Shown here piece by piece: positions 1 through 12,839 of a stretch of 19,722 nucleotides of DNA. The first letter of the stretch is position 1. The number at the start of each line of letters is the position of its first letter. The notes beneath the pieces were generated by a model. The model worked only from the letters and a program-made list of their open reading frames with translations. It made no database searches and was not told the origin of the DNA. A program made the position numbers and the translations under genes. This stretch comes from a bacterium. Lineage in GTDB: Bacteria; T1Sed10-126. The stretch lies in the NCBI GenBank assembly GCA_003557545.1, contig PWOD01000230.1, forward strand, positions 1 to 19,722, read 5' to 3'.

Positions 1-87
1 ACTGTATATATTTTGCTGCTGATTGCTGTTTCCCTGACTGTTCTATTTACAACCCGCTGGTTACTGGGTGTAAAAAATGGGAGTTAA
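1..87 (+). CDS. ABC transporter permease, C-terminal end (partial)
   Basis: The window opens inside a reading frame that ends with TAA at 85-87. The 28 visible residues are mostly hydrophobic (TVYILLLIAVSLTVLF) and end in a short basic tail, as in the last membrane helix of an ABC permease. It overlaps the start of the following ATPase by 11 bases, so the two are very likely co-transcribed and translationally coupled. The permease call rests on this helix and on the neighbour; nothing in the fragment identifies the substrate. Confidence 0.6.
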   Translation, partial: TVYILLLIAVSLTVLFTTRWLLGVKNGS

Positions 88-1165
88 AGTTAAAAACTTA
101 ACTGTGGTGCAGGGAGATTTCTTACTTGATAGTATCGATTTAAAAACTGAAGGTTGCCAGTATTTTGTAATTCTTGGTCCCACTGGCTCCGGCAAGTCCA
201 CACTCCTAAAATCTCTACTTGGCCTCTACAAACCCTGCGGCGGAGAAATATATATTAATGGCGAAGAGATAACAAATCATTTGATCGAAAGCCGTAACAC
301 AGGTTATATTCCGCAGGATCTGGCTTTGTTTCCACATTTAAACGTCCAAAGAAACATCGCCTACGGAATGGAAGTAAGCGGCCTGACAAAGAAACGTCAG
401 AAAGAAAAAATAGAACGGATTTGTGAATGGCTGCACATAAGGGATCTTCTTGAGCGCAGTCCACAGGGATTGAGCGGAGGCGAGAAACAGAAGGTCGCAC
501 TGGCCCGGGCACTGGTTAACGATCCCCAGCTTCTACTGCTGGACGAACCTTTCTCCGCTATTGACCGTGCAACCCGGCGCGAAATATGGACAGAAATGCT
601 GGCGGTTATCAACAAATTGGAAATTCCTGTTATCCACGTAACACATGACCTTGAAGAAGCCTATGCCCTGGGCGAGGAGTTCGCAGTAATGATCAACGGC
701 CAAATAAAGCAGCAGGGAAGCCGAGAAGAGGTATTTCAGCGGCCGCGAACCCGAAGAATCGCCCATTTTTTATCCTACCACAATATTTTTGAAGGTCAGG
801 TTGTTGAAAAGTTAAGCAGCGTTGAAAGCCGGGTGGAATGCCACGGGCTGAGGTTTACATTTGAATGCGACAGGCCGGTTGGAGAGAAGGTTAGTTTCTG
901 TATCAGGCCCCAGGATTTCAAGATAGTTAAGGAAAATGAAAAGTTACGCAGTGAAATAAAAAATAATCTTTTCACCGGCAAGATAACCAACACAATTTTC
1001 AGGCCTGCTGCAGCCTCCATTTACTTTAGACCCGATAACGCCCGGAACAATACCGAGTTTAAAATAAACATGCCCTCCTACATCTACAAACGCCACCAAC
1101 TATCCAACACAAAAATTATTAAAGTTGCTGCCTGGCAAAAAAACATAATCTATCTGGCAGAATAA
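77..1165 (+). CDS. ABC transporter ATPase, molybdate/tungstate-like oxyanion importer class
   Basis: This is the cytoplasmic ATP-hydrolysing subunit of an importer. The ATPase domain (about residues 1-235) has a Walker A motif GPTGSGKST at 34-42, Q-loop Gln80, ABC signature LSGGE at 132-136, Walker B LLLLDEP at 152-158 and H-loop His190 (THD). Residues about 235-362 form a C-terminal regulatory extension with an IRPQD element, as in TOBE/MOBE domains of the ModC/WtpC/CysA/PotA group. At 362 residues it has the normal length for that group. The ATG at 77 overlaps the permease stop, which fits coupled translation. Molybdate or tungstate is my preferred substrate because of overall ModC/WtpC-like character and the adjacent NifX/Mrp locus; sulfate, thiamine or another anion cannot be excluded. 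It converges with the desulfidase-like gene 75 bases away, and I see no convincing terminator between them. Confidence 0.85.
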   Translation: MGVKVKNLTVVQGDFLLDSIDLKTEGCQYFVILGPTGSGKSTLLKSLLGLYKPCGGEIYINGEEITNHLIESRNTGYIPQDLALFPHLNVQRNIAYGMEVSGLTKKRQKEKIERICEWLHIRDLLERSPQGLSGGEKQKVALARALVNDPQLLLLDEPFSAIDRATRREIWTEMLAVINKLEIPVIHVTHDLEEAYALGEEFAVMINGQIKQQGSREEVFQRPRTRRIAHFLSYHNIFEGQVVEKLSSVESRVECHGLRFTFECDRPVGEKVSFCIRPQDFKIVKENEKLRSEIKNNLFTGKITNTIFRPAAASIYFRPDNARNNTEFKINMPSYIYKRHQLSNTKIIKVAAWQKNIIYLAE

Positions 1166-1239: not shown

Positions 1240-2286
1240 CTACGGAGCCAATTTATAAACCATTTTCAGAGCCATGTATCCTTTCAGAGCGCAGCTCGCT
1301 TTTGCTCCTTCACAGACTATTCCGCGCATAGACTCAGCCAGAAGTTCCATGCCTTTTTCGATTTTCAAAAGACCAGCACCACTGTCAAACATCAAACCGG
1401 CCAGCAGCGACAAAGCGGCATGAGCGGTCAAACCACAGCTATCAGAAATTCGCTCGGAATTCTGGACTAAATATATTTGCACAAGAACAGCAAACAGAGC
1501 GGCGGGCAGGAACTTATCACCCTGCTCTTTATACTGTTCGTAAAGAGGCAGGGCCATAAATATTCCCTGGTTACCTGAACCGGTTATGGTTTGGATCCGC
1601 AGCGAATCTCCAGCCATCCGACCGCGAATTACCTTCTCAACCGCCTCCAGCGCGGTTTCATAACCCTGATGATCAAATATTTTCCCCTGCCTGGTTATAA
1701 ATTCACGTACAATTTCCTTAAGAGAGCCGTCATCATTGGTCACGATTCCAAGAACAGCCTCAAGATTGTTTATCGCCGGCAAACTTTCCTCCGACCGCGT
1801 TTGAACTATCTCACCATCACAACTTAACTCCTCTACACTATCATGCTCCCCCGAAATCACGGCACGGCTGCAGTGGGAATCGGTCAGACAGGTTGCTTCG
1901 ACAAAAATTCCACGTTTATCCAGAGGTTCAATTTCCAACCAATCATCCCTATCCAGTAGTTCATATATTTTTTCCAGGTCCTCATCGTTAATAGAAGGAA
2001 AAAGATTCAAGGAGTCGGGGCGTGCATACAAACCACAGGCTGCCGCGGCTTTTGCGCCCTTTTCCCTAATAACCGGAACGTTCACTGTGGAAACATTTCG
2101 ATTCACATCATGGGAAAGAGCGAGGATTACTTTAAGCCGTGCCGGGTCGAACTCCTCGGAAATATTTTGTCCAACTGTCGCACGGGCCCGGGCAACGGCG
2201 TAGGCAATACTGGCCGGTTCCGTGCAGCCCACCACCTCTTTTATTTCACTTTTCAAAAGTTTTTCCCAGTTTTTACTGTCTCTCAT
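1240..2286 (-). CDS. L-cysteine desulfidase / UPF0597 (CyuA-like) family protein, short C-terminus
   Basis: Characterised members of this family (M. jannaschii cysteine desulfidase, E. coli CyuA/YhaM) release sulfide from cysteine using a 4Fe-4S cluster, and they resemble the alpha part of Fe-S L-serine dehydratases. The hallmarks are present: GCTEP with Cys21 as the expected active-site residue, GSGNQG at 236-241, and three candidate cluster ligands, Cys284 (DSCGLTAH), Cys325 (VCEGAK) and Cys332 (SCALK). At 348 residues it is about 80 shorter than the usual 420-440; the missing part is mainly the segment normally found after the last cluster cysteine. The key residues are intact, so it may still work. 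It is the last gene of the nine-gene operon, starting 19 bases after the metallo-hydrolase gene. Supplying sulfide for cluster or cofactor assembly is an inference from context; the true substrate could differ. Confidence 0.8.
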   Translation of the reverse strand: MRDSKNWEKLLKSEIKEVVGCTEPASIAYAVARARATVGQNISEEFDPARLKVILALSHDVNRNVSTVNVPVIREKGAKAAAACGLYARPDSLNLFPSINDEDLEKIYELLDRDDWLEIEPLDKRGIFVEATCLTDSHCSRAVISGEHDSVEELSCDGEIVQTRSEESLPAINNLEAVLGIVTNDDGSLKEIVREFITRQGKIFDHQGYETALEAVEKVIRGRMAGDSLRIQTITGSGNQGIFMALPLYEQYKEQGDKFLPAALFAVLVQIYLVQNSERISDSCGLTAHAALSLLAGLMFDSGAGLLKIEKGMELLAESMRGIVCEGAKASCALKGYMALKMVYKLAP

Positions 2287-2305
2287 TTTAATCAGCCTCT
2301 TTAGT

Positions 2306-2950
2306 TTAAAATTTTATTGTCTGACCTACCGGAGTTTCAAGGTATTTACTTTTATAAAGATCCCTTATCTTCGATTTATTTTTTGTGCAGTGTGCAGGGG
2401 CAATTAGCTTTAACCCCTCAAGCAGCTGATAATCAGCAAAATCATGCAGCCCACCGACTACAGCTTCTATTTTACCTGCCGGAGCAAGTGCATCGAAAAT
2501 ATTCTCCAGACCCGGGTGGGCACAGCCGGTGATCACAGACAGTCCTGTCTTTGTTTCAACCGCAAGGGATTGTTCCTTAATTTTTTCCCCCAGTTCCCCT
2601 CCCGTCCAGAGTCCGTCAGATATTTTTTCTCTTCCTGTAACCGCTTTTAAAGAAGCTGTCTTCCTAATCTCTTCTTTCATATGTTCCGAAAACGATTCTG
2701 GGACAATGATCTCCATGTGGGGTTGAATTATACCCGGCAGTCCACCGGCATGATCCCAGTGTGAATGGGAGATAACAACTTTTTCTACTTGAGAAAGTTT
2801 GATGTTAAATTTTTGCATATTATATAAAAGCCGGCGCACATCCCAACCGGTATCAAACAGAAGTTTAAATTCAGGCAGATAACATGAAAACCCCCAGCCC
2901 GCTTTAAATCCCGGCTGTGCGCTGTTGTCATAAACTATCTGCAGTTTCAT
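2306..2950 (-). CDS. Metallo-beta-lactamase-fold hydrolase (COG1237-like)
   Basis: A 214-residue cytoplasmic metallo-beta-lactamase-fold protein. The metal-binding motif is HSHWDH at residues 62-67, followed by GCAHPG (His145), GGLHDF (His169) and PAHCT (His187), which together supply the expected ligands for a dinuclear metal site. The layout, with a TGCAHPG segment, matches the COG1237 group that includes proteins named for dihydropterin-related phosphate synthase activity in methanogens; it is somewhat shorter than the usual 250-280. Its ATG overlaps the stop of the DUF364 gene by four bases (ATGA), so the two are coupled. Such proteins often sit beside NifX/MTH1175-type and Mrp-type genes in anaerobes. 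The substrate is unknown; a cofactor-precursor phosphohydrolase or cyclohydrolase role is only a guess. Confidence 0.85.
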   Translation of the reverse strand: MKLQIVYDNSAQPGFKAGWGFSCYLPEFKLLFDTGWDVRRLLYNMQKFNIKLSQVEKVVISHSHWDHAGGLPGIIQPHMEIIVPESFSEHMKEEIRKTASLKAVTGREKISDGLWTGGELGEKIKEQSLAVETKTGLSVITGCAHPGLENIFDALAPAGKIEAVVGGLHDFADYQLLEGLKLIAPAHCTKNKSKIRDLYKSKYLETPVGQTIKF

Positions 2951-3693
2951 TTTAAAGCAAGATTCACCTTTCTAGAAACTTTCAACAAAGTACGCGTACC
3001 GCCAGCCTGGCTGACCATCCGCATAGCTCTGGAGGGATCTTCAATCACGGCCCCGCCCAGCAATGTAACACCTTTGCTGGCCATAATCTCCGGTGCAAGT
3101 GGTGTGGAAGGACCAAGAACCACCACCTCGCGAGCATTTTCGCAGAGCGGAAGCAAAGAATCAAATGTATTGTTTATAACGGTTGTTCCGGAGAGAACCA
3201 CGACATCCATTTTGGGTAAATACTGAGGTGCCGACCAGTCGGGATACAGGTACTTATCAGTAAGTTCGCGCTCAAACACATACAGGTCAACTTCATTTTG
3301 AAGCCGGTCTACGAGTGGACAAAAGTTACCAATCATACCCCATTTTTCACCGGGTTTAACCTCTATATACTCCATAACATCACCGTTAATATTTTCTTTT
3401 TCTCCAATTTTTTCACTTAGAGCGGCATTTATCACGGCCATCCCGGCTGCCGAATCAACAAGCCGTGGTTTTAAAGCCAGGCGGGCCAGCTCCATGGCAT
3501 CTCGCTGGTGCAGTTCGCCACTACCGGATTTGAGTTCACAGTAATGTCCGGCCTGACGGCGAAAAGAAAAAGCAACGCCGGCCGCTCCACCTTCCAGCCA
3601 GGCGCCGGTGTAACCAAATCCGATTCTCAAGTCCTTCACTTCGCGCCCGACAAGGCCGGCGGCGACGCTGCTTAAAAGTTCTTCTATAATCAT
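2947..3693 (-). CDS. DUF4213/DUF364 protein, putative heavy-metal chelation domain
   Basis: A 248-residue protein. The first about 85 residues match the DUF4213 (enolase N-like) pattern. Residues about 110-245 form the Rossmann-like DUF364 domain, with GMIGNFCPLVDRL, the conserved VFER segment (YVFERELTD), a SGTTVINNTFDSLL segment, LGPSTPLAP and a GG(T)R-type end. Family annotation suggests heavy-metal chelation or involvement in metal homeostasis; a reaction is not established. Cysteines are few (Cys52, the FCP cysteine and one in LPLCEN), so no obvious cluster motif is present. The gene lies 19 bases after the first ferredoxin-containing ATPase gene and overlaps the metallo-hydrolase gene by four bases. 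Context suggests handling of a metal or metal-cofactor intermediate with the two ATPases. Confidence 0.82.
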   Translation of the reverse strand: MIIEELLSSVAAGLVGREVKDLRIGFGYTGAWLEGGAAGVAFSFRRQAGHYCELKSGSGELHQRDAMELARLALKPRLVDSAAGMAVINAALSEKIGEKENINGDVMEYIEVKPGEKWGMIGNFCPLVDRLQNEVDLYVFERELTDKYLYPDWSAPQYLPKMDVVVLSGTTVINNTFDSLLPLCENAREVVVLGPSTPLAPEIMASKGVTLLGGAVIEDPSRAMRMVSQAGGTRTLLKVSRKVNLALK

Positions 3694-3712
3694 TTTATAT
3701 ACTCTCCTAATA

Positions 3713-4570
3713 TCACAGATAACTGTTCAGGTTTTTCCAGATTTTTCTAAGTTTTGGCGTTAAAAGTTCATTTTTATTTTCAATAACAGTCTGTCTTTTT
3801 TTAAGAGCGTCCAGAACTTTCTTATCATAGGGCAACCGTCCAACAAGAATATGGTTTTGTTGCTGACAGTATTGTTCTATCCTGGAGCTCATATCTTCGT
3901 TGATATTTGCTTTATTAATGCAAACAAAAGATTTTATAGTGAGCTGGTTTGCTACCTCTAAAACCCGCTTGAGGTCGTGAAACCCCGAAACAGTAGGTTC
4001 AGTAACAACCAGCGCCCCATCACTGCCGCGCAGGGAAGCAATTACCGGACAGCCGGTGCCCGGCGAACCGTCTATAAAAGCAATGTCAAAATCATCTTTG
4101 TATTCACTCAACTGTTCTTTTATTTTTATCACCAGCTTACCGCTGGCCTCTTCTCCGCGCTCAAGCTCAGCGTGTATAAGCGGACCAAATCTCGTCTCAG
4201 AGTTAAAAACAGTGCCTGTTTTGTGGGCTTTTAAGGTCAATACATTATCAGGGCAAACATATACGCAGCTTCCACAACCCTCGCACTTAAATGCATTGAC
4301 CTCGCCGTTAGAGTTTATGCCATCAAAACGGCAGACTTCAGCGCAGCGACCGCATCCGGAACATTCTCCCGTTTTAACCGCCCGGGAAGAACCGATATAT
4401 TCCTGACTGCTTCTGATTTGCGGATTTAACAAGACCGGTAAATTACTGGCATCTACGTCGCAATCGGCCATTATTACCCGCTGTTCTGCGAACGCCAGAT
4501 CGGCCAGTGCTGCACACAAAGTAGTTTTTCCGGTCCCCCCTTTCCCGCTGATAACAACCAGTTGTTTCAT
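3713..4570 (-). CDS. ParA/MinD/Mrp-type P-loop ATPase with inserted two-cluster ferredoxin domain
   Basis: A 285-residue member of COG1149, cytoplasmic MinD/Mrp-like ATPases carrying a ferredoxin insert. The deviant Walker A motif GKGGTGKTT lies at 9-17 and a DCDVDASN switch I region at 36-43. The insert holds two cysteine sets: C70-x2-C73-x2-C76-x3-C80, and C96-x2-C99-x2-C102-x3-C106 followed by Pro, expected to bind two 4Fe-4S clusters. FIDGSPGTGCPV and a VVTEPTVSGFHDLKR segment complete the nucleotide fold. Its ATG overlaps the stop of its paralogue by four bases. Paired ATPases of this type sit in ORP/MTH1175 loci, and related Mrp/Nbp35 proteins transfer Fe-S clusters. A role in loading a metal-sulfur cofactor is inferred; the two probably act as a hetero-pair. 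Confidence 0.92.
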   Translation of the reverse strand: MKQLVVISGKGGTGKTTLCAALADLAFAEQRVIMADCDVDASNLPVLLNPQIRSSQEYIGSSRAVKTGECSGCGRCAEVCRFDGINSNGEVNAFKCEGCGSCVYVCPDNVLTLKAHKTGTVFNSETRFGPLIHAELERGEEASGKLVIKIKEQLSEYKDDFDIAFIDGSPGTGCPVIASLRGSDGALVVTEPTVSGFHDLKRVLEVANQLTIKSFVCINKANINEDMSSRIEQYCQQQNHILVGRLPYDKKVLDALKKRQTVIENKNELLTPKLRKIWKNLNSYL

Positions 4571-5400
4571 CTTATCAACTCTTCAATCCGGGAATAAACA
4601 GTCACAAACTTTTCCTTCCACTCCGGTTTTTCTTTGATGAACGGAATCCCTTTCGAATAAAGCCTGGCTATATCTTCGGCCTGCTCAATTCGCAGCAGCA
4701 CAGGTATGTTTTTGCGGTGGCAATAATTTTCAGTATCTTCATCTCTAATTTTCCCGGCTCTGTTAATGATTACCCCGCCAGGTATTTCTAAATCCGCAAG
4801 CATTTCCACCGATTTTTTCAGATCGTGAAAACCAAAAGGAGTAGGCTCGGTTACCAGCACACAAAAATCCATTCCGTCAAGTGCAGTTGTCGAAGCACAA
4901 TTACATCCGGGTGGGAGATCATAGATATTAATAGCGCCCGGCCTGGTTTTCTGTTTAACGGCTTCTATTACAGGGGCAGCATTAGCCTCACCTGTTTTTA
5001 ACTTTCCGTGATAAAAATCAATTTCTCCCCGGCCTTTTTCGACTATACCGGTAACTTTTTCCTGATCGTTTATCGCTCCCCGTGGACAGGCCAGCGCACA
5101 CAGCCCACAGAAGTGACACAACTCCTGCTGAACAACTATCTTTCCAGGAAGCTGAAGAAGAGCGTTAAACTGGCATAATCGCGCGCATTCACCACAGAGG
5201 TCGCATTTTTCGGTATCGACATTAGGATAAAAAACTTTTACCTGTCCGGCCGGCGCCAGCTTAATATCCAGAAAGAGATGACAGTTTGGCTCCTCAACAT
5301 CGCAGTCAAAAAGCACAGCATCTTCCAATGCCAGGGCAAGGTTAAGGGCAACTGTAGTTTTTCCGGTTCCCCCTTTTCCACCGGCAACAGCGAGTTTCAT
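4567..5400 (-). CDS. ParA/MinD/Mrp-type P-loop ATPase with inserted two-cluster ferredoxin domain, paralogue
   Basis: Paralogue of the next gene downstream, with the same architecture. Positions below count from a GTG at 5403 that is directly followed by an ATG; I prefer the ATG at 5400 (277 residues), though the weak upstream site (AGAGAAG) does not decide it. Walker A is GKGGTGKTT at 9-17, followed by DCDVEEPN. The ferredoxin insert has C67-x2-C70-x2-C73-x3-C77 and C96-x2-C99-x2-C102-x3-C106-Pro. DLPPGCNC and a VTEPTPFGFHDLKK segment correspond to the switch II and later motifs. The two proteins have cysteines at nearly the same spacing but differ widely elsewhere, so duplication is old. 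The gene begins about 12 bases after the 120-residue NifX-like gene. Confidence 0.92.
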   Translation of the reverse strand: MKLAVAGGKGGTGKTTVALNLALALEDAVLFDCDVEEPNCHLFLDIKLAPAGQVKVFYPNVDTEKCDLCGECARLCQFNALLQLPGKIVVQQELCHFCGLCALACPRGAINDQEKVTGIVEKGRGEIDFYHGKLKTGEANAAPVIEAVKQKTRPGAINIYDLPPGCNCASTTALDGMDFCVLVTEPTPFGFHDLKKSVEMLADLEIPGGVIINRAGKIRDEDTENYCHRKNIPVLLRIEQAEDIARLYSKGIPFIKEKPEWKEKFVTVYSRIEELIR

Positions 5401-5412
5401 CACGGACTTCTC

Positions 5413-5775
5413 TTAACGGGTGTGATGCTGTGTACATACGTTATTACTGTCGGCTTGAAAAAGTTTGCCTTCATTCCAGGCTTTCAATACATCCTTGACT
5501 GTTCCCGAAGCACCCACGCAAACATCAATACCCATTTTATTGAACATATCTACGGCACGGCGGCCAAGGTTTGAACAAAGAACCAGGTCAACGTCACTAT
5601 TTTCAATTAATTCAGGCGGTTTACCTTTCCCACCCATATGCTCGCTGGTATTGGAAACCGATTCCAATTCTTTGGTTTCATCATCATAAATCACAAAACC
5701 CACGGCGCGGCCAAAATGAGCACTCACCCTGGAATCCATTTCCTCTATATTCTCTACCGGTACAGCTATTCTCAT
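5413..5775 (-). CDS. NifX/NifB-C-terminal-like protein (dinitrogenase iron-molybdenum cofactor family, MTH1175/ORP type)
   Basis: A 120-residue single-domain protein of the family that includes NifX, NafY, the NifB C-terminus, MTH1175 and the orange protein. These bind metal-sulfur cofactors or their precursors. The sequence begins MRIAVPVENI, continues with RVSAHFGRAVGFVIYD and CSNLGRRAVDMFNKMG, and has VCVGASGTVKDVLKAW before a short tail containing CTQHH. The HFGRA segment and the late GAxGTV-type segment are typical. Cys66 (LCSNLG), the cysteine of DVCVG and the CxxHH tail are possible metal contacts, but this is not established. The start is well supported by a GGAGGAAAAG site inside the end of the DUF134 gene, which it overlaps as ATGA. 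It lies just before the two ATPase genes, as expected for a client or carrier protein. Confidence 0.88.
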   Translation of the reverse strand: MRIAVPVENIEEMDSRVSAHFGRAVGFVIYDDETKELESVSNTSEHMGGKGKPPELIENSDVDLVLCSNLGRRAVDMFNKMGIDVCVGASGTVKDVLKAWNEGKLFQADSNNVCTQHHTR

Positions 5776-6083
5776 TTCTTTTCCTCCTCAGTTTTTTTTA
5801 CAGTATAACTACCGCCATGTAAGTGAAGTATCTTGCCTTCCGTTAAAGCCTGACCAATTTTTTTACGAGCTGCTCGCAAAATACGATGCAAAGTCGGCTG
5901 CGAGACCTCCATCATTTCCGCGGCCTCCTGCTGACTGTAGCCTTCGTGATCATTTAAACGAATTGCTTCCAACTCCTCGACTTTCAAACGTATCTGGCCA
6001 CTATCACTGCTGTCGCGAGGGCCATACATTTCCCAGCCCGGGAGAAAACTTATCTTACGTTTACGCGGGCCGCGCGGAGACAT
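5772..6083 (-). CDS. DUF134 family DNA-binding protein, probable local regulator
   Basis: A 103-residue member of DUF134 (UPF0251). It begins MSPRGPRKRK, followed by a PGWEMYGPRD segment, the conserved LKVEELEAIRLNDHEG stretch (33-48), and a sigma-region-4-like helix-turn-helix at about 49-75 (YSQQEAAEMMEVSQPTLHR, then ILRAARKKI). The tail is Lys/Glu rich. No metal-binding cysteine is present, unlike some relatives. The gene starts directly after the stop of the Gly-rich NifX-like gene and overlaps the next NifX-like gene by four bases. DUF134 genes are commonly found next to NifX/MTH1175-type genes, so it most likely regulates this operon. The 20-bp palindrome over the operon promoter (7016-7035) is a natural candidate for its site; that pairing is my inference. 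Confidence 0.88.
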   Translation of the reverse strand: MSPRGPRKRKISFLPGWEMYGPRDSSDSGQIRLKVEELEAIRLNDHEGYSQQEAAEMMEVSQPTLHRILRAARKKIGQALTEGKILHLHGGSYTVKKTEEEKK

Positions 6084-6563
6084 TTAAAATTGTCCCCGCT
6101 GGCCGACTCCGCGACCGCCGCCAAACCCGCGACCGCCACGCCCTCGGCCTGCACCTCCGCCAGGCTGGACCCCACCGATCCCGGGAGGTGGGATTTGAGC
6201 CGGTCCACCTGCTTCTGCTTCACTGACAGGCTCTAAGTCTCCCTTTTCGTAAGCTTTCGCAGCTTCAGATGCTGTCATCCCGGAAGCAACAAACGGCTTT
6301 ATATCAGATTGCCCACAAATAGAAAAAACATTCGGGCCAAAGCTCCCGGCGATTATGGCTTCAGCTTTTTTGCGGGCCACCAGACCAACAGCCTGAATTC
6401 CTGCGCCGCGTTCGGCTGATGCAAACTCGTTGTTGATAACCTCTTCACCCTTTACCTCCCCATCTTCAACTTTGATTAATGTAAAAGTCTGGCACCGCCC
6501 AAACACAGGCGAAACCTGGTCGGCGCCACCACCACGCACGGTCGCCACTGCAACTTTTTTCAT
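6084..6563 (-). CDS. NifX/MTH1175-like protein with Gly/Arg-rich C-terminal tail
   Basis: I place the start at 6563, where MKKVAVATVR begins, because a perfect GAGGAGGT site ends seven bases upstream. A longer frame from 6635 would add 24 residues that encode the ribosome-binding region and are not family-like. The protein has 159 residues. About residues 1-118 are a NifX-type domain (VSPVFGRCQTFTLIKVEDG, ERGAGIQAVG, AIIAGSFGPNVF, FVASGMTASEAAKAYEKG). About 119-159 are a low-complexity tail of Gly, Pro, Gln and Arg, with RG-type repeats near the end. Cys24 in GRCQTF and Cys83 are the only cysteines. This is the second cofactor-binding protein of the operon. Similar Gly-rich tails occur in relatives, but their role is unknown. 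Confidence 0.85.
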   Translation of the reverse strand: MKKVAVATVRGGGADQVSPVFGRCQTFTLIKVEDGEVKGEEVINNEFASAERGAGIQAVGLVARKKAEAIIAGSFGPNVFSICGQSDIKPFVASGMTASEAAKAYEKGDLEPVSEAEAGGPAQIPPPGIGGVQPGGGAGRGRGGRGFGGGRGVGQRGQF

Positions 6564-6652
6564 AACACTTACCTCCTCGTCAGATAATATTAAACTTAAC
6601 CACCTAAAAACTACAACCCCTGTGAAATGCTTCACTTCCCGGTTTACAAAAA

Positions 6653-6922
6653 TTATTTAACCGCAAATTCTCCAACCTGTTTTTTCAAAATCTCTACTTC
6701 TTGACGCAACCGGTCTATTTCTGTATCTTCCTCAGCAGTGCCATTTTGCTGACGAACTCCCAGATTCTGCCGAAAATAACGCTGCGCATCTTCAAGCTGA
6801 CCGGTCTGCCTGAGATACTGTACCCCCGGCGGCAACCCTCTCCAGCCAGAACTGTAGCCCCTTCTCATCCAACCCGGGAGTCCGGTCTGATAATACATAT
6901 TTCGATATCCATGTCCCATCAT
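6653..6922 (-). CDS. DUF5320-like small protein
   Basis: A protein of about 89 residues whose first half is rich in Gly, Arg, Tyr and Trp (YYQTGLPGWMRRGYSSGW) and whose last about 25 residues form a likely coiled coil (TEIDRLRQEVEILKKQV). This fits the DUF5320 type that accompanies NifX/MTH1175-like genes in anaerobes, although the common MPGGDG-type beginning is absent. The frame can be opened with a GTG at 6928, but that codon overlaps the AGGAGGT site at 6927-6933. The ATG at 6922 or 6919 has sensible spacing and I use 6922. It is the first gene of the operon, about 100 bases after the predicted transcription start and 89 bases before the next gene. Function unknown; a scaffold or metal-protein partner is possible. 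Confidence 0.7.
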   Translation of the reverse strand: MMGHGYRNMYYQTGLPGWMRRGYSSGWRGLPPGVQYLRQTGQLEDAQRYFRQNLGVRQQNGTAEEDTEIDRLRQEVEILKKQVGEFAVK

Positions 6923-6956
6923 AAACACCTCCTAAAAAGATCCCTTTGAATAAGAC

Positions 6957-7278: not shown

Positions 7279-8275
7279 ATGAGCCGTTTTAAAAAACTGC
7301 TTGTTTTTTTCGCTGTTCTCCTGGTTTTCCTGGGAGTTGTTTCTATTTACCAGGCGAATAAATCTTTGCCTGAAAATCTTAATTTAGCCGGTAAAACACA
7401 CCGGATTCCGGCGGAAAATATCCGGTTTTTAAAGGCTCTCTCTTTTATCGACGCCAGTGGAAACAGCAGAGTAGAACAGGAGATTTTTGACGAAATATTC
7501 AACCTGATCAAAAATGCCCGGCATTTTATCCTGGTCGACATGTTTCTTTTTAACGATTTTCTCGGCTACGATCCCCGGACTCACCGCAACTTATCGGGCG
7601 AGTTAACAGAGTTGCTCATCAAAAGGAAAGAAAATAATCCGGATATGAAAATAGTATTTATTACCGATCCAATAAATACCCTTTACGGTTCTCACAACCT
7701 GCAGTATCTGGAAAAATTAAGTGATGCCGGGGTAGAAGTTGTTTTGACCGACCTGCGGCGGTTACGCGATAGCAATCTCGTTTACTCCCCTCTCTGGCGT
7801 ACATTTTTTCAATGGTTTGGAGAAGGTGATGCTGGTTTCTTACCGAATCCTTTTAATCCTTCCGGCGGGGGTTGGCGCTGCGTTCTTACCTGACACTTCT
7901 GAATTTTAAAGCCAATCACAGGAAAATAGTAGTTGCCGATAGCCTGGTCCGGGGAAAAACACTCTATCAAGCATAATTACTTCCGCCAATCCCCACGACG
8001 GCTCCAGCAGACATGAAAATATTGCTCTAAGAATTGACGGTTACATCTGGGAAGATATTTTAAAAAGCGAACAGCCTGTTCTTGATATCTCTTCTTCTGA
8101 AATCAAGCTACCTTCGGAGTCACTTCAAAATTTCGATCAACTTAACGAACAAAACACAGACGAACAAACTGTCAAAGCCCAGATTTTAACCGAAGAAAAA
8201 ATAAGAGACCGGCTCTTAAAACGTATAAACGGACTCGAAAAAAACGATTCTAAAAAAGAAAAGAAAGCAGCTTAA
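7279..8275 (+). pseudogene. Phospholipase-D-family protein, frameshifted and C-terminally truncated
   Basis: The frame starts at 7279 with a membrane anchor or signal sequence (KKLLVFFAVLLVFLGVVS) and a PLD-type N-terminal half (VDMFLFNDFLGYDP, VFITDPINTLYGS, VVLTDLRRLRDSNLVYSPLW). It runs to a stop at 7893. One missing base in the G5 run at 7867-7871 restores LALRSYLTLLNFKANHRKIVVAD, carrying the first H-x-K-x4-D motif. A second missing base in the A5 run at 7955-7959 restores SIITSANPHDGSSRHENIAL, followed by an open frame to TAA at 8273-8275. Related proteins are about 500 residues or more and have a second HKD domain; none follows here. So the second half is lost even if both shifts are sequencing errors. 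The gene diverges from the operon upstream. I found no strong promoter or ribosome binding site for it. Confidence 0.8.
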
Positions 8276-8557
8276 TGATGCTTTCGCCGGAGGACACTTT
8301 TACACAATATATCGGACTTGACCTGAAAAATCACTAAAACGATCATAGCCTGATATTCCATAGTTGGGAGCGTTGGCAAATAAATTCAGGACAATCTGAC
8401 CTCGTGAACCATCACTCATATTTTGCTCTTTTTTTAGTTTGCTATAAACAATTTACAGGCAAGAAAACGTAAAACGTAGTGTCTGACCCCAACTTATGGT
8501 GGGGTTTTTAGTTGATTTTGAGGAGTTTTTTGATTAAGGACAGGTAAGGAAAAAAAG
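8276..8557. other. Stretch without a convincing gene, possibly remnant DNA
   Basis: After the broken PLD gene there is no supported coding region until tRNA-Asp. A 39-codon minus-strand frame at 8300-8419 (starting MSDGSRGQIVLNLF) has protein-like composition but no ribosome binding site and no family I recognise. The TAGTGTCTGACCCC stretch near 8478-8490 recalls ends of degraded mobile elements, but I see no matching inverted repeat or target duplication. A terminator-like hairpin lies at its right side. Confidence 0.35.
8486..8509 (+). terminator. Rho-independent terminator candidate
   Basis: ACCCCA (8486-8491) pairs with TGGGGT (8500-8505) around an 8-base loop, and the T tract runs through 8509. 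It would stop plus-strand transcription coming from the broken PLD gene before it runs into the tRNA-Asp region. The stem is only six pairs but GC-rich. Confidence 0.55.
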
Positions 8558-8631
8558 CGGGGACGACCGGATTTGAACCGGCGATCTCCTCCTTGACAGG
8601 GAGGCGTGTTAAACCACTACACTACGTCCCC
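8558..8631 (-). tRNA. tRNA-Asp (anticodon GTC)
   Basis: The minus strand folds as a standard tRNA: acceptor GGGGACG pairing with CGTCCCC, anticodon stem CCTCC/GGAGG around the loop CTGTCAA (anticodon GTC), and T-loop GGTTCAAATCC. The discriminator base is G, as usual for tRNA-Asp. The 3' CCA is not encoded. A T7 tract follows directly on the minus strand and may help termination. Confidence 0.95.
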
Positions 8632-8813: not shown

Positions 8814-9200
8814 GTGCAACTAATATACCAACTACTGGCTGAGCTGACTTTTTCCGTTCATCTGATTTTTATCATTTTTGCAATTTTTGGCGGGCTGGCC
8901 TGTCTGCGCTGGAAATGGCTGTTGGTGCTCCATTTACCCTGCCTGACCTGGGCTATTCTGATCTGGTTTTTCCGCTGGCGCTGTCCCCTCACACCGTTAG
9001 AAAATCAGTTTCGCGCAGCGGCCGGGTTAACAACCTATGATGGCGGATTTATCTCCCATTATATCTACCCACTAATTTATATCAGTCCGCCCACAACTGA
9101 ACAGAGAATCATCTTGGGGAGTCTATTAATAATCGGTAACCTGATAGCCTACGGACTGATTTATCAAATCCATTTCAGACCAGACCAACCGAAAGCTTAA
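8814..9200 (+). CDS. DUF2784 family membrane protein
   Basis: A 128-residue integral membrane protein with about three to four hydrophobic segments (roughly residues 10-28, 32-52, 82-92 and 97-118). It carries the DUF2784 hallmarks: WKWLLVLHLPCLTWA, RCPLTPLENQFR at about residues 54-66, and YDGGFISHYIYPLIY. The family has no established function; the CPLT-LEN motif is its signature. The start is a GTG at 8814; the nearest purine-rich sequence (GGAAAGGA) is about 15 bases upstream, so initiation is probably weak. The gene appears monocistronic. Its stop overlaps the stop of the opposing esterase-like gene (9197-9200), so the two converge with no spacer or terminator between them. Confidence 0.85.
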   Translation: MQLIYQLLAELTFSVHLIFIIFAIFGGLACLRWKWLLVLHLPCLTWAILIWFFRWRCPLTPLENQFRAAAGLTTYDGGFISHYIYPLIYISPPTTEQRIILGSLLIIGNLIAYGLIYQIHFRPDQPKA

Positions 9201-10849
9201 TCAACTAATCCCAGACCCTCAAGTGCCGAACTTTCTTGAATGAAAATCAACGCGTCATAACGCATGGGAAGAATTGTCGGAACATAATTTCCCTGTTCCT
9301 GCCGGGGGTTATAGACAACACCAACTGCCCGATGTCCACGGGGATCTTCCAGCAAACCTGACTGGCGCAAACTATCATCGAACAAAAGATAAAACTGTGG
9401 GATATCCAGCCGGTTCAAAAATTCATCATGACTGTTCTGGACTGCTTCTGGAAGTTGCATTACCTGTCCGGGCTGTCCCCACTGTGATCCAGCTTTCACA
9501 GTTCCATGATAACTGGAAAACCCAAGAATGCGAACCTTGTCCATGGTATACTCCTCGCGCATCAACTGACCCATGTTAACCTGGCCCTGTTCGGTCATGA
9601 TCGTTGCCCGGGCGTCGCCTACGTGAGTGTTATGGGCCCAGACAATACCACGAGCATCAGGACCATAATGATCGATCAAACGATGAATAGTATTTTCCAT
9701 GTGATAGACACGTTCATTCCAATTGTCGAGAGTCTGATCAACCATGCCACGATAATGACGTTCGGCATATTTCAAAGCAGATGCTTTCTGACGAATCCGG
9801 AGAGATAACTCTGCTGAACTTTGCGGGGCTATTTCTTGAAAAACAAGCTGATAAAGCTCCTCCATCGGCTGTTCACAGGACTCACCGGTATGCTGAACCC
9901 AGCGAGCATAACTGTGCCCATCATCACGATAATCTTCAAAACAGGAATATTTTTCAGCAATTCTCGAGCGGTATTCAGGAAACTCATCCAGAAGTTCTAA
10001 CAGCCTATCACCACCATCCCAGGTCCCATAAACATCAAGCCCGTAAAAACCCACCTTATCAGCAGTTTGATTATGTTCACGTAGCCAGCTGACAAAATCT
10101 AAAACTACCCGATTAGACCACATCCAGGGGGGCCAGCGGTCAAGTCCGCCAAACAGCTGATCGGTTTCAGTTATTGCACCATCAAAATCCTTAACAAACT
10201 TATTCAATTGATATAGAGAAGCCCAATCTCCCTCAACAACAACAAAATCAAACTCATGTTCCTCAATCAGACGGCGACTTATCTCGGCGCGCCAGTGATA
10301 ATATTCTTCGGTACCGTGTGAGGCTTCTCCCAGCAGCGCAAGCCGGCCTTCGGCCAGATGGTCAATTAGCGGATCAAGCTCTCCAGTTTGCTCGAAGGGC
10401 CGGGTAAACTCTGTCAGTCGCTCGATATCCCGGGGGGAACCGGTAGAAGTTACTTCGGTAGCATCCGGACAACCTTCTTCAAGACAGTTTTTGACAGCCT
10501 CCTCCATCTCCGGTGCCATGTTGTCTTGATATCCAACCCAGTGTTGTTTGCCGATGAAGGTCGCAGGAACAGCAATTCTAAAAACCCCATGAAGTTCAGA
10601 AAGCTGCTGTAATAACGCTTGATTTTCACGGTCACGATATACTTCCAGTTTTTTGATTGATAGTTCAGGATAGTCATCGGCCAGCCGGTCAAGAAAAACC
10701 TCCTGCCGTTCACAGAAGGGACAACCCTCTCCCCAGAAAAAATAGAGTGTTGTTTCACTGGATACAGCCTCTTGCTGGCCCAGGCAGGAACTCCCCAGGA
10801 AAATCAAAAGCAGACCGACAAATAATACTACCTTGTTTGAAAAACTCAT
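9197..10849 (-). CDS. Exported fusion: thioredoxin/glutaredoxin-like domain plus erythromycin-esterase-like domain
   Basis: A 550-residue protein. Residues 1-21 are a signal sequence ending LGSSC; Cys22 could be lipidated, though Gly at -3 is atypical for a lipobox. Residues about 32-125 are a thioredoxin-fold domain with a CPFC redox motif at 43-46 and the cis-Pro region AVPAT at 93-97. Residues about 140-548 match the erythromycin esterase family, with LLGEASHG (Glu175, His178), VVVEGDW (Glu206), PWMWSNRVVLDFVSWLR, FYGLDVYG, WAHNTHVGD (His409) and a C-terminal MRYDALIFI. These cover the residues needed by EreA/EreB-type enzymes. The combination is unusual. The gene is monocistronic, preceded by an AGGGGTG ribosome binding site. 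Macrolide resistance should not be assumed: most members of this superfamily are uncharacterised hydrolases. A thiol-linked role outside the membrane is an inference. Confidence 0.88.
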   Translation of the reverse strand: MSFSNKVVLFVGLLLIFLGSSCLGQQEAVSSETTLYFFWGEGCPFCERQEVFLDRLADDYPELSIKKLEVYRDRENQALLQQLSELHGVFRIAVPATFIGKQHWVGYQDNMAPEMEEAVKNCLEEGCPDATEVTSTGSPRDIERLTEFTRPFEQTGELDPLIDHLAEGRLALLGEASHGTEEYYHWRAEISRRLIEEHEFDFVVVEGDWASLYQLNKFVKDFDGAITETDQLFGGLDRWPPWMWSNRVVLDFVSWLREHNQTADKVGFYGLDVYGTWDGGDRLLELLDEFPEYRSRIAEKYSCFEDYRDDGHSYARWVQHTGESCEQPMEELYQLVFQEIAPQSSAELSLRIRQKASALKYAERHYRGMVDQTLDNWNERVYHMENTIHRLIDHYGPDARGIVWAHNTHVGDARATIMTEQGQVNMGQLMREEYTMDKVRILGFSSYHGTVKAGSQWGQPGQVMQLPEAVQNSHDEFLNRLDIPQFYLLFDDSLRQSGLLEDPRGHRAVGVVYNPRQEQGNYVPTILPMRYDALIFIQESSALEGLGLVD

Positions 10850-11403: not shown

Positions 11404-12420
11404 ATGACTCAAACTAAGGAGTTCAAAAACAGATTTTCCTGGTCAAGCAGCCGTTCCGAGCTTTTTGCTGAGTGTAAACGAAAGTATTACTATCAATATT
11501 ATGGTTTCTGGGGGGGCTGGAAAAAACAGGCTGACAGGCGACTGAAAACTCTCTACATGCTTAAACAGCTGGATAATAGATTTTTATGGAAAGGTAATAT
11601 TATCCACGAAGCAATCGCTTTCTTAATTCTATCCAGGCTAAAAAAACAAGCGCTCCCGTTGGAGCAGTTCAAGGAAACGGTTGTCAAAAGAATGCGAAAT
11701 CAGTATCGTGAATCACTGACCGGCCAATATCGCTCAAACCCCAAATATAAATTTGGTCTGCTCGAGCATGAATACAACGAACAGATTAATGATAAAGCAT
11801 GGTGTGAAATCCGTGACTCGGTTATCAGGGGGATCGACCATTTTACCGGTTCAACTATTTTTTCTAAAATAAAACAGCTCGATCCCGGAGCCTGTCTGGC
11901 AATTGAGGGTGACCTGCGCAAACCGAAAAATATCTGGGGCAGATTATCGCCGGACCTGTTTACCTACCTGTCTCTGCCCTATACAGCATATGCCGATAGT
12001 TTTAAAATAGGCGAAATACCTATCTGGGCAAAGATCGATTTTGCGTTTCAGGAACCGAGTGGGACGGTTCATATTATCGACTGGAAATCTTCAGTTAACC
12101 GTACCAACTTCGACCCTTTCCAGCTCAAAGTCTATGGTCTTTATGCTCAAAAAAACTGGGTTTCAAAAACTGTGCCGATCAAACTATCCTTTTATAATGT
12201 GAGTAATGACAGAATCCAGCAGGAAGATTTCAACCGGGATGACCACACAAGCTGTCTTAAAAAAATCAGGCTGGATATCGCCAGGATGCAGAAGCTACTG
12301 GTTAACAAATCTGACAATACAGGCAGGGAAGAAGATTTTGTTAAAACCGATAATAAAAGCAGCTGTCGGTACTGTAGATACCGCCGCGTTTGTTTATCAG
12401 ACGAGGATAAAGCTGTTTAA
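11404..12420 (+). CDS. PD-(D/E)XK superfamily nuclease with Cas4/AddB-type Fe-S cysteines
   Basis: A 338-residue RecB-family-like nuclease. It begins with an FSWSSSRSELFAEC segment (Cys24) and RKYYYQYYG. It has a KGNIIHEA motif (His69), a KIDFAF motif with Asp212, VHIIDWKSS with Asp226 and Lys228, and a QLKVYGLYA helix (Gln240, Tyr244). The C-terminal CRYCRYRRVC supplies Cys321, Cys324 and Cys330. With Cys24 this makes the one-plus-three cysteine arrangement that binds a 4Fe-4S cluster in Cas4 and AddB. All residues for a metal-dependent nuclease are therefore present. It is longer than Cas4 and no cas gene or repeat array is nearby, so it is better named a stand-alone PDDEXK_1-type exonuclease. 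DNA repair is a plausible role. An AAGGA lies about 11 bases before the ATG. Its stop overlaps that of the opposing PerR-like gene. Confidence 0.85.
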   Translation: MTQTKEFKNRFSWSSSRSELFAECKRKYYYQYYGFWGGWKKQADRRLKTLYMLKQLDNRFLWKGNIIHEAIAFLILSRLKKQALPLEQFKETVVKRMRNQYRESLTGQYRSNPKYKFGLLEHEYNEQINDKAWCEIRDSVIRGIDHFTGSTIFSKIKQLDPGACLAIEGDLRKPKNIWGRLSPDLFTYLSLPYTAYADSFKIGEIPIWAKIDFAFQEPSGTVHIIDWKSSVNRTNFDPFQLKVYGLYAQKNWVSKTVPIKLSFYNVSNDRIQQEDFNRDDHTSCLKKIRLDIARMQKLLVNKSDNTGREEDFVKTDNKSSCRYCRYRRVCLSDEDKAV

Positions 12421-12839
12421 AAACTGGCCGGTTTAGAATAACAACACTCACATAATCCGGTCAGGGTCATGCTGATATCCTCAAGTTGAAATGGCAGATT
12501 CCATGATTCAATCTCTTCTGTTAAATCTAAGGGGATATCAATAATCCGTTTACATTTTTGACAACGGGCATGGGGATGAAAAGTATGGCGTATTTCATAA
12601 TAGTCGGTAGAGCTAATTCCAGAAAGCTGACGTAAAAAGCCAACTTCCAGAAATACTTTCAGACAGTTATACACCGTTGCCCTGGACAGCTGATTGTCAT
12701 TCTCACGATCCAGCTCAAGCAGATCGGCAGCAGTAAAGTGTCCGTCAGCCTGTTTACAGAGATCGATAAAATATTTTCTTTCCCGAGTAACCTGCCGATC
12801 ATGGTTGCGCAACTTCTCAATAACATTTGTTTTTTCCAC
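12417..12839 (-). CDS. Fur-family transcriptional regulator, PerR-like
   Basis: A 140-residue Fur-family repressor. The winged helix lies in about residues 10-75, with the recognition-helix segment LSRATVYNCLKVF. The structural zinc site is Cys93-x2-Cys96 and Cys130-x2-Cys133. Candidate regulatory metal ligands are His34, Glu82, His88, His90 and Asp101. Aligned on the first zinc cysteine these match B. subtilis PerR His37, Asp85, His91, His93 and Asp104; the Asp at the last position is typical of peroxide-sensing PerR, while Glu82 replaces an Asp. Peroxide sensing is therefore likely but unproven. The start is GTG at 12839, with a GGAGGG site six bases upstream. The promoter carries an A/T-rich inverted repeat, which suggests autoregulation. 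Confidence 0.85.
   Translation of the reverse strand: MEKTNVIEKLRNHDRQVTRERKYFIDLCKQADGHFTAADLLELDRENDNQLSRATVYNCLKVFLEVGFLRQLSGISSTDYYEIRHTFHPHARCQKCKRIIDIPLDLTEEIESWNLPFQLEDISMTLTGLCECCYSKPASF

Follow-up and report, generated by a model that had tools for sequence, protein, structure and literature searches.

A short L-cysteine desulfidase homologue in an ORP/MTH1175-like operon: a candidate iron-sulfur assembly module

The subject of this analysis is a nine-gene putative operon on a 19,722-nucleotide contig, PWOD01000230.1 of GenBank assembly GCA_003557545.1 (the whole contig is referred to below as the window), which forms part of a 2.15 Mb draft bacterial genome, G000. Our preferred interpretation, to which we assign a probability of about one half, is that the operon encodes an ORP/MTH1175-type module for assembling and carrying iron-sulfur (metal-sulfur) clusters under anaerobic conditions, and that this module would have its own cysteine-derived source of sulfide. 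The parts are of known kinds; a short clade of L-cysteine desulfidase homologues (CyuA) and a DUF364 protein extend the ORP/MTH1175-type module. The papers searched, including for joint mention of the families or COGs, held no earlier description of the combination, of the short CyuA clade or of its DUF364 coupling. The ORP core is already known; what appears to be new is the dedicated desulfidase clade, together with the link between that clade and DUF364. Two questions are addressed: where strict anaerobes that lack a standard cysteine desulfurase obtain the sulfur for their Fe-S clusters, and what role the widespread NifX/ORP/MTH1175 proteins play. A desulfidase clade tied to NifX/ORP genes in several phylum-level groups offers one testable handle on both.

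The short-type desulfidase

The last gene of the operon encodes the desulfidase homologue. A profile built from five CyuA sequences matches only the solved L-cysteine desulfidase (9FSL and relatives), with an E value of 3e-67 to 9FSL. In this enzyme, CyuA of M. maripaludis (MmCyuA), Cys23 and Glu25 are catalytic, Cys287, Cys329 and Cys336 are the ligands of the [4Fe-4S] cluster, and Arg223 and Asn239 lie near the substrate (PMC12647591). The window protein retains the catalytic pair as C21 and E23, the cluster cysteines as C284, C325 and C332, and both substrate ligands as R223 and N239; all seven residues are present in 12/12 intact short CyuA proteins collected in the survey described below. 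Since the catalytic, cluster and substrate residues are all kept, cysteine desulfidase activity is likely, in line with the sulfide-releasing enzyme proposed when the sequence alone was read. Serine dehydratase identity was ruled out because C21 and E23 are kept; their equivalents are not conserved in serine dehydratases (PMC12647591).

Unlike MmCyuA, the window protein has only 348 residues and is encoded inside a metal-sulfur gene cluster. Short CyuA proteins end about 45 residues before the C-terminus of the ~400-residue enzymes and also lack a segment in the middle of the protein. Because the full-length C-terminal domain is missing, we assign the window protein, on the basis of its sequence, to a homologous clade and not to standard CyuA. 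Two size classes, defined from the matches and not set in advance, can be distinguished: a short one of 345-362 residues and a long one of 398-481 residues plus two fusions. A single branch with support 100/100 divides them, the short clade standing on a long stem, and the KN pair found in every long form is RN in every short form (K63 to R). Ordinary cysteine-catabolic CyuA was ruled out as an identity, as both clade and gene context differ. An AlphaFold2 model of the desulfidase computed from two sequences had a pLDDT of 44 and was unusable. At loci L048 and L050, two long CyuA domains were seen at the C-terminus of ~1300-residue proteins.

Recurrence of the gene set in other genomes

Approximately 290 diverse genomes were surveyed with models for DUF364, NifX, CyuA and MBL, and three phylum-centred searches were added. 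The sampling comprised one relative from the family of G000, designated G001 (isolate T1Sed10_126, a name that refers to soda-lake sediment); all other genomes share only the domain Bacteria with G000. Short CyuA genes were recovered intact in 12 cases and as an N-terminal fragment in one (G296), distributed over four phylum-level groups. Phylum-centred searches around G133 and G094 produced no further short CyuA case, since those phyla are tiny, and a scan of genome contigs with a two-sequence desulfidase alignment, whose patterns were too narrow, returned only the known relative G001.

Gene context was scored by the presence of a NifX, ORP ATPase, MBL, DUF364, DUF134, DUF5320 or MrpORP gene within 8 kb of CyuA. 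Such neighbours were found for 11 of the 12 intact short CyuA genes and for the fragment, versus none of the 21 long CyuA genes. The Fisher P values of 2.4e-8 (with the fragment) and 6e-8 (without it) overstate independence, because the linkage traces back to a single stem in the tree, that of the short clade. The stronger argument is that the gene set is retained through rearranged orders, which also excludes chance adjacency. Within 8 kb, MBL is present in 10/13 short CyuA loci and DUF364 in 7/13; in six loci DUF364 is the immediate neighbour, upstream in three and downstream in three, and always on the same strand. MBL and DUF364 genes also occur near NifX without CyuA (in at least 13/58 and at least 10/57 loci, respectively, within 10 kb of listed NifX genes, G000 and G001 included), so the short desulfidase is an addition to a more widespread neighbourhood. 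Lineages that are not related to one another thus share the association of desulfidase, MBL and DUF364 genes with the NifX/ATPase set, and the linkage expected from the sequence-only reading is what relatives display.

The order in G001 is NifX(tail)-DUF134-MBL-CyuA-DUF364. A second, divergent form of DUF364 is linked to CyuA in G001 and occurs, apparently as an orthologue, on contig C160 of G000; there (L039:8527-10100) it stands beside a decayed CyuA-like copy with stops and frameshifts, while the matching pair is intact in G001. MrpORP fusions are present in two short-CyuA genomes, beside short CyuA in G270 and on a second contig in G133. Further recurrent partners, which vary by locus (L043, L044, L030, L032 and L041), are CoA-disulfide reductase, DUF89, TrmO-like, class I methyltransferase, DnaJ-like and FmdB-like proteins. 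CoA-disulfide reductase lies near several short CyuA loci and, in the copy tested, has a C-terminal rhodanese domain; this protein could serve as another route to sulfide. The CyuA fragment of G296, an N-terminal piece without the cluster cysteines, shares one open frame with a CoA-disulfide reductase (L047:9547-11163); fusion, decay and assembly error are all possible origins of this frame.

Proposed function, sulfur source and metal

The operon's core resembles the ORP complex and MrpORP of Desulfovibrio, where a single locus encodes the NifX-fold ORP protein together with a pair of proteins that each have two 4Fe-4S motifs (PMC6345978). Each window ATPase carries two CxxCxxCxxxC motifs, that is, eight cluster-type cysteines, together with a GKGGTGKT P-loop. 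Relatives of the window locus contain Mrp-NifX fusions like MrpORP, which in Desulfovibrio passes Fe-S clusters to Orp3/Orp4 and aconitase (PMC6345978). Unlike the two divergent operons of Desulfovibrio ORP, the window has one operon, with none divergent upstream of 6928; it lacks MrpORP, encodes the putative regulator DUF134 (in relatives, Fur) where ORP loci have a sigma-54 activator, and adds the desulfidase, DUF364 and MBL genes. The product of the second gene has a NifX-fold domain and, after it, a cationic Gly/Pro-rich tail, which makes it a possible counterpart of IssA of Pyrococcus furiosus, a thioferrate-binding protein of large oligomers whose tail is cationic and rich in Gly and aromatic residues, and of MTH1175, its nearest solved relative, which Vaccaro et al. 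assign to the IssA clade (PMC5524996). The window tail (~42 residues, 19 of them Gly, pI 12) is shorter than that of IssA. The DUF364 protein exceeds the cut-offs for DUF4213 and DUF364 (130.2 and 53.3 bits) and shares this architecture with Dhaf4260 (3L5O), whose family is reported alongside metal transporters (PMC2954201). Unlike Dhaf4260, it lies close to a desulfidase, and DUF364, whose structure was solved in 2010, thereby gains a specific partner.

In the mechanism we propose, short CyuA would bind a [4Fe-4S] cluster on C284, C325 and C332 and, with C21 and E23, split cysteine, yielding pyruvate, ammonia and sulfide. The NifX-fold proteins would receive this sulfide, either free or as a transient [4Fe-5S] species, for use with iron; the Gly/Arg-tailed one of them may hold an anionic Fe-S polymer as IssA does. 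By analogy with ORP/MrpORP, the two ferredoxin-bearing MinD-type ATPases would load clusters and pass them on in an ATP-dependent cycle. A small-molecule ligand or chelate may be the target of DUF364, which is the nearest partner of the desulfidase, and of the MBL hydrolase, and regulation would be exerted by DUF134 in the window operon and by Fur in many relatives. The "complete build-and-carry set" envisaged by the sequence-only reading is an inference.

Pyridoxal phosphate (PLP)-dependent cysteine desulfurase was not found in G094, G296, G298 and G299 (93, 91, 97 and 89% complete drafts), where only other proteins of the PLP aminotransferase fold were met. Methanococcales likewise have CyuA and lack cysteine desulfurase (PMC12647591), so a sulfur-donor role of the short desulfidase is plausible. 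A bolder version, in which the short clade would be a dedicated PLP-free donor to NifX-fold scaffolds and ATPases, with DUF364 as direct partner, and would replace IscS/SufS/NifS for Fe-S clusters in some lineages, we regard as tentative and on balance doubtful.

Several observations weigh against the preferred interpretation. A NifS-type cysteine desulfurase scores above cut-off in G000, as in several other genomes, so CyuA is not the sole sulfur source there. One of the four desulfurase-less genomes, G296, yielded only the CyuA fragment. The two ORP-type ATPases were not found in the G001 genome and other genomes carry Mrp, fused MrpORP, DUF89 or Fur in the set, so that the nine families do not form a fixed combination. 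The exception in the context survey is G298, where short CyuA sits in a Fur-FeoA-FeoB cluster on a contig that has no ORP genes; G296, which belongs to the same genus, has its CyuA fragment, the reductase and a piece of an MBL gene next to Fur and a FeoAB-like pair. The IssA-like tail has just two aromatic residues and no Trp, unlike PF2025. Finally, the transporter adjoining the operon is ModABC/WtpC and not an iron transporter.

The last point bears on the nature of the metal. A stretch of 121 identical bases is shared by the end of contig C160 and the start of the window, and the joined region reads modA-modB-wtpC, convergent to the operon; a molybdate/tungstate transporter therefore adjoins it. 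ModA is above the TIGR01256 cut-off, while WtpC is the best match for its gene but falls below its own cut-off. On the contig that holds modAB we also noted a ZnuABC-like metal transporter cluster, named from sequence motifs (L039:4700-8500), so that several metal transporters flank the operon region. Since ModABC/WtpC adjoins the operon, Mo/W is possible as its metal in G000. The module might then build or store thiomolybdate, thiotungstate or a Mo-Cu-S unit of the kind known from D. gigas ORP, for which ModABC would supply the metal and CyuA the sulfide. A Mo-Cu-S cluster bound by ORP is cited in PMC6345978, DUF364 is reported beside tungstate, molybdate and vanadium transporters (PMC2954201), and MoaA is present in G000 and G001. 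However, transporter and module are two convergent transcription units, and at the other short-CyuA loci no match to a Mo/W transporter was obtained next to the module; the recurrent neighbours are instead Fur (within 8 kb in 6/13 loci) and FeoA/FeoB (2/13). Among the draft genomes, MoaA was not found in five of the 13, G302 (94% complete), G296, G270, G133 and G299, nor in G301 (66% complete). Molybdenum or tungsten cofactor thus cannot be the general product of the module, and the evidence across loci points to iron over Mo/Cu. Also on the side of iron are the MrpORP fusions, the CoA-disulfide reductase of several loci and the kinship of the tailed NifX-fold protein with MTH1175. Overall, we consider a Mo/W-sulfur module unlikely.

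There is also a small chance that the module serves cysteine and sulfide homeostasis, degrading surplus cysteine and buffering sulfide as iron sulfide, with cluster delivery secondary. CyuA is reported to protect M. maripaludis from cysteine (PMC12647591) and to ferment cysteine in E. coli (PMC9040844); IssA is produced when sulfur is abundant (PMC5524996), and the CoA-disulfide reductase-rhodanese protein of related loci would fit. Yet ordinary long CyuA, which does this job, never occurs in the module context, a CyuP-type cysteine importer was not seen in the window operon, and two cluster ATPases would be costly for a detoxifying unit. Least probable of all, a shift of short CyuA from cysteine to a different amino acid or thiol connected with the DUF364 product would agree with the long stem, the lost segments, the K63 to R change and the tight DUF364 coupling, but C21, E23 and all cluster and substrate ligands are kept.

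Operon layout and genomic setting

The positions of the genes are given in Table 1. As the sequence-only reading had described, all nine lie on one strand with overlaps or gaps of at most 89 bases; from the first gene to the last, the spacing is 89, 0, -4, 9, -4, 19, -4 and 19 bases, which suggests a single transcription unit. The run had been placed at 1240-6922, and its course holds, although the first gene starts at a GTG at 6928, two codons further out. The 89-base gap presupposes that the first NifX-like gene starts at ATG 6563; this codon has a GAGGAGG ribosome site, which an alternative upstream GTG at 6635 lacks, and is the most likely start. Scans for promoters and terminators yielded counts that equalled or only modestly exceeded those of shuffled sequences, and no usable operon boundary emerged from them.

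Table 1. Genes of the putative operon and its convergent neighbours in the window.
Feature	Position	Strand	Evidence
Short-type CyuA (L-cysteine desulfidase homologue), 348 aa	1240..2286	-	Pfam, profile match, tree, residue comparison with MmCyuA
MBL-fold metallo-hydrolase, 214 aa, HSHWDH motif	2306..2950	-	Pfam, motif
DUF4213+DUF364 protein, 248 aa; nearest solved relatives 3NPG, 3L5O	2947..3693	-	Pfam
MinD/ParA-type ATPase, two 4Fe-4S ferredoxin motifs (ORP-type), copy B	3713..4570	-	Pfam, motifs
MinD/ParA-type ATPase, two 4Fe-4S ferredoxin motifs (ORP-type), copy A	4567..5403	-	Pfam, motifs
NifX-fold (PF02579) protein, 120 aa, 3 Cys; nearest solved relatives PH0822 (2YX6), 1T3V/1O13	5413..5775	-	Pfam
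DUF134 putative DNA-binding regulator	5772..6083	-	Pfam
NifX-fold (PF02579) protein, Gly/Pro/Arg C-terminal tail (tail pI 12); nearest solved relative MTH1175 (1EO1)	6084..6563	-	Pfam
Small Gly/Met/Tyr-rich protein, DUF5320-like (weak)	6653..6928	-	Match to in-house neighbour profile
WtpC/ModC-like molybdate/tungstate ABC ATPase, third gene of modA-modB-wtpC run; convergent neighbour	77..1165	+	Profile
3' end of modB permease, rest on contig C160	1..87	+	121-base contig overlap

Pfam matches support eight of the nine genes (SDH_alpha/CyuA, Lactamase_B, DUF364+DUF4213, two CbiA/ParA ATPases with two Fer4 each, two Nitro_FeMo-Co and DUF134) and, with the motif counts, agree with the family names given earlier for the NifX-fold proteins, the eight-cysteine ATPases, DUF134, DUF364 and MBL. 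The DUF5320 label of the first gene stands less firmly: there is no Pfam match even at E 5, and the gene matches a profile of DUF5320 neighbours built in this analysis at E 1e-6, which makes the label a weak one.

Upstream of the operon, a phospholipase-D-like frame with an HRKIVVAD motif and several frameshifts (7279-8600) is likely a pseudogene. A Fur-family regulator is encoded at 12417-12839, 5.5 kb from the operon. Unusually, the erythromycin-esterase-family protein encoded at 9197-10849 has at its N-terminus a stretch that resembles glutaredoxin (weak Pfam match).

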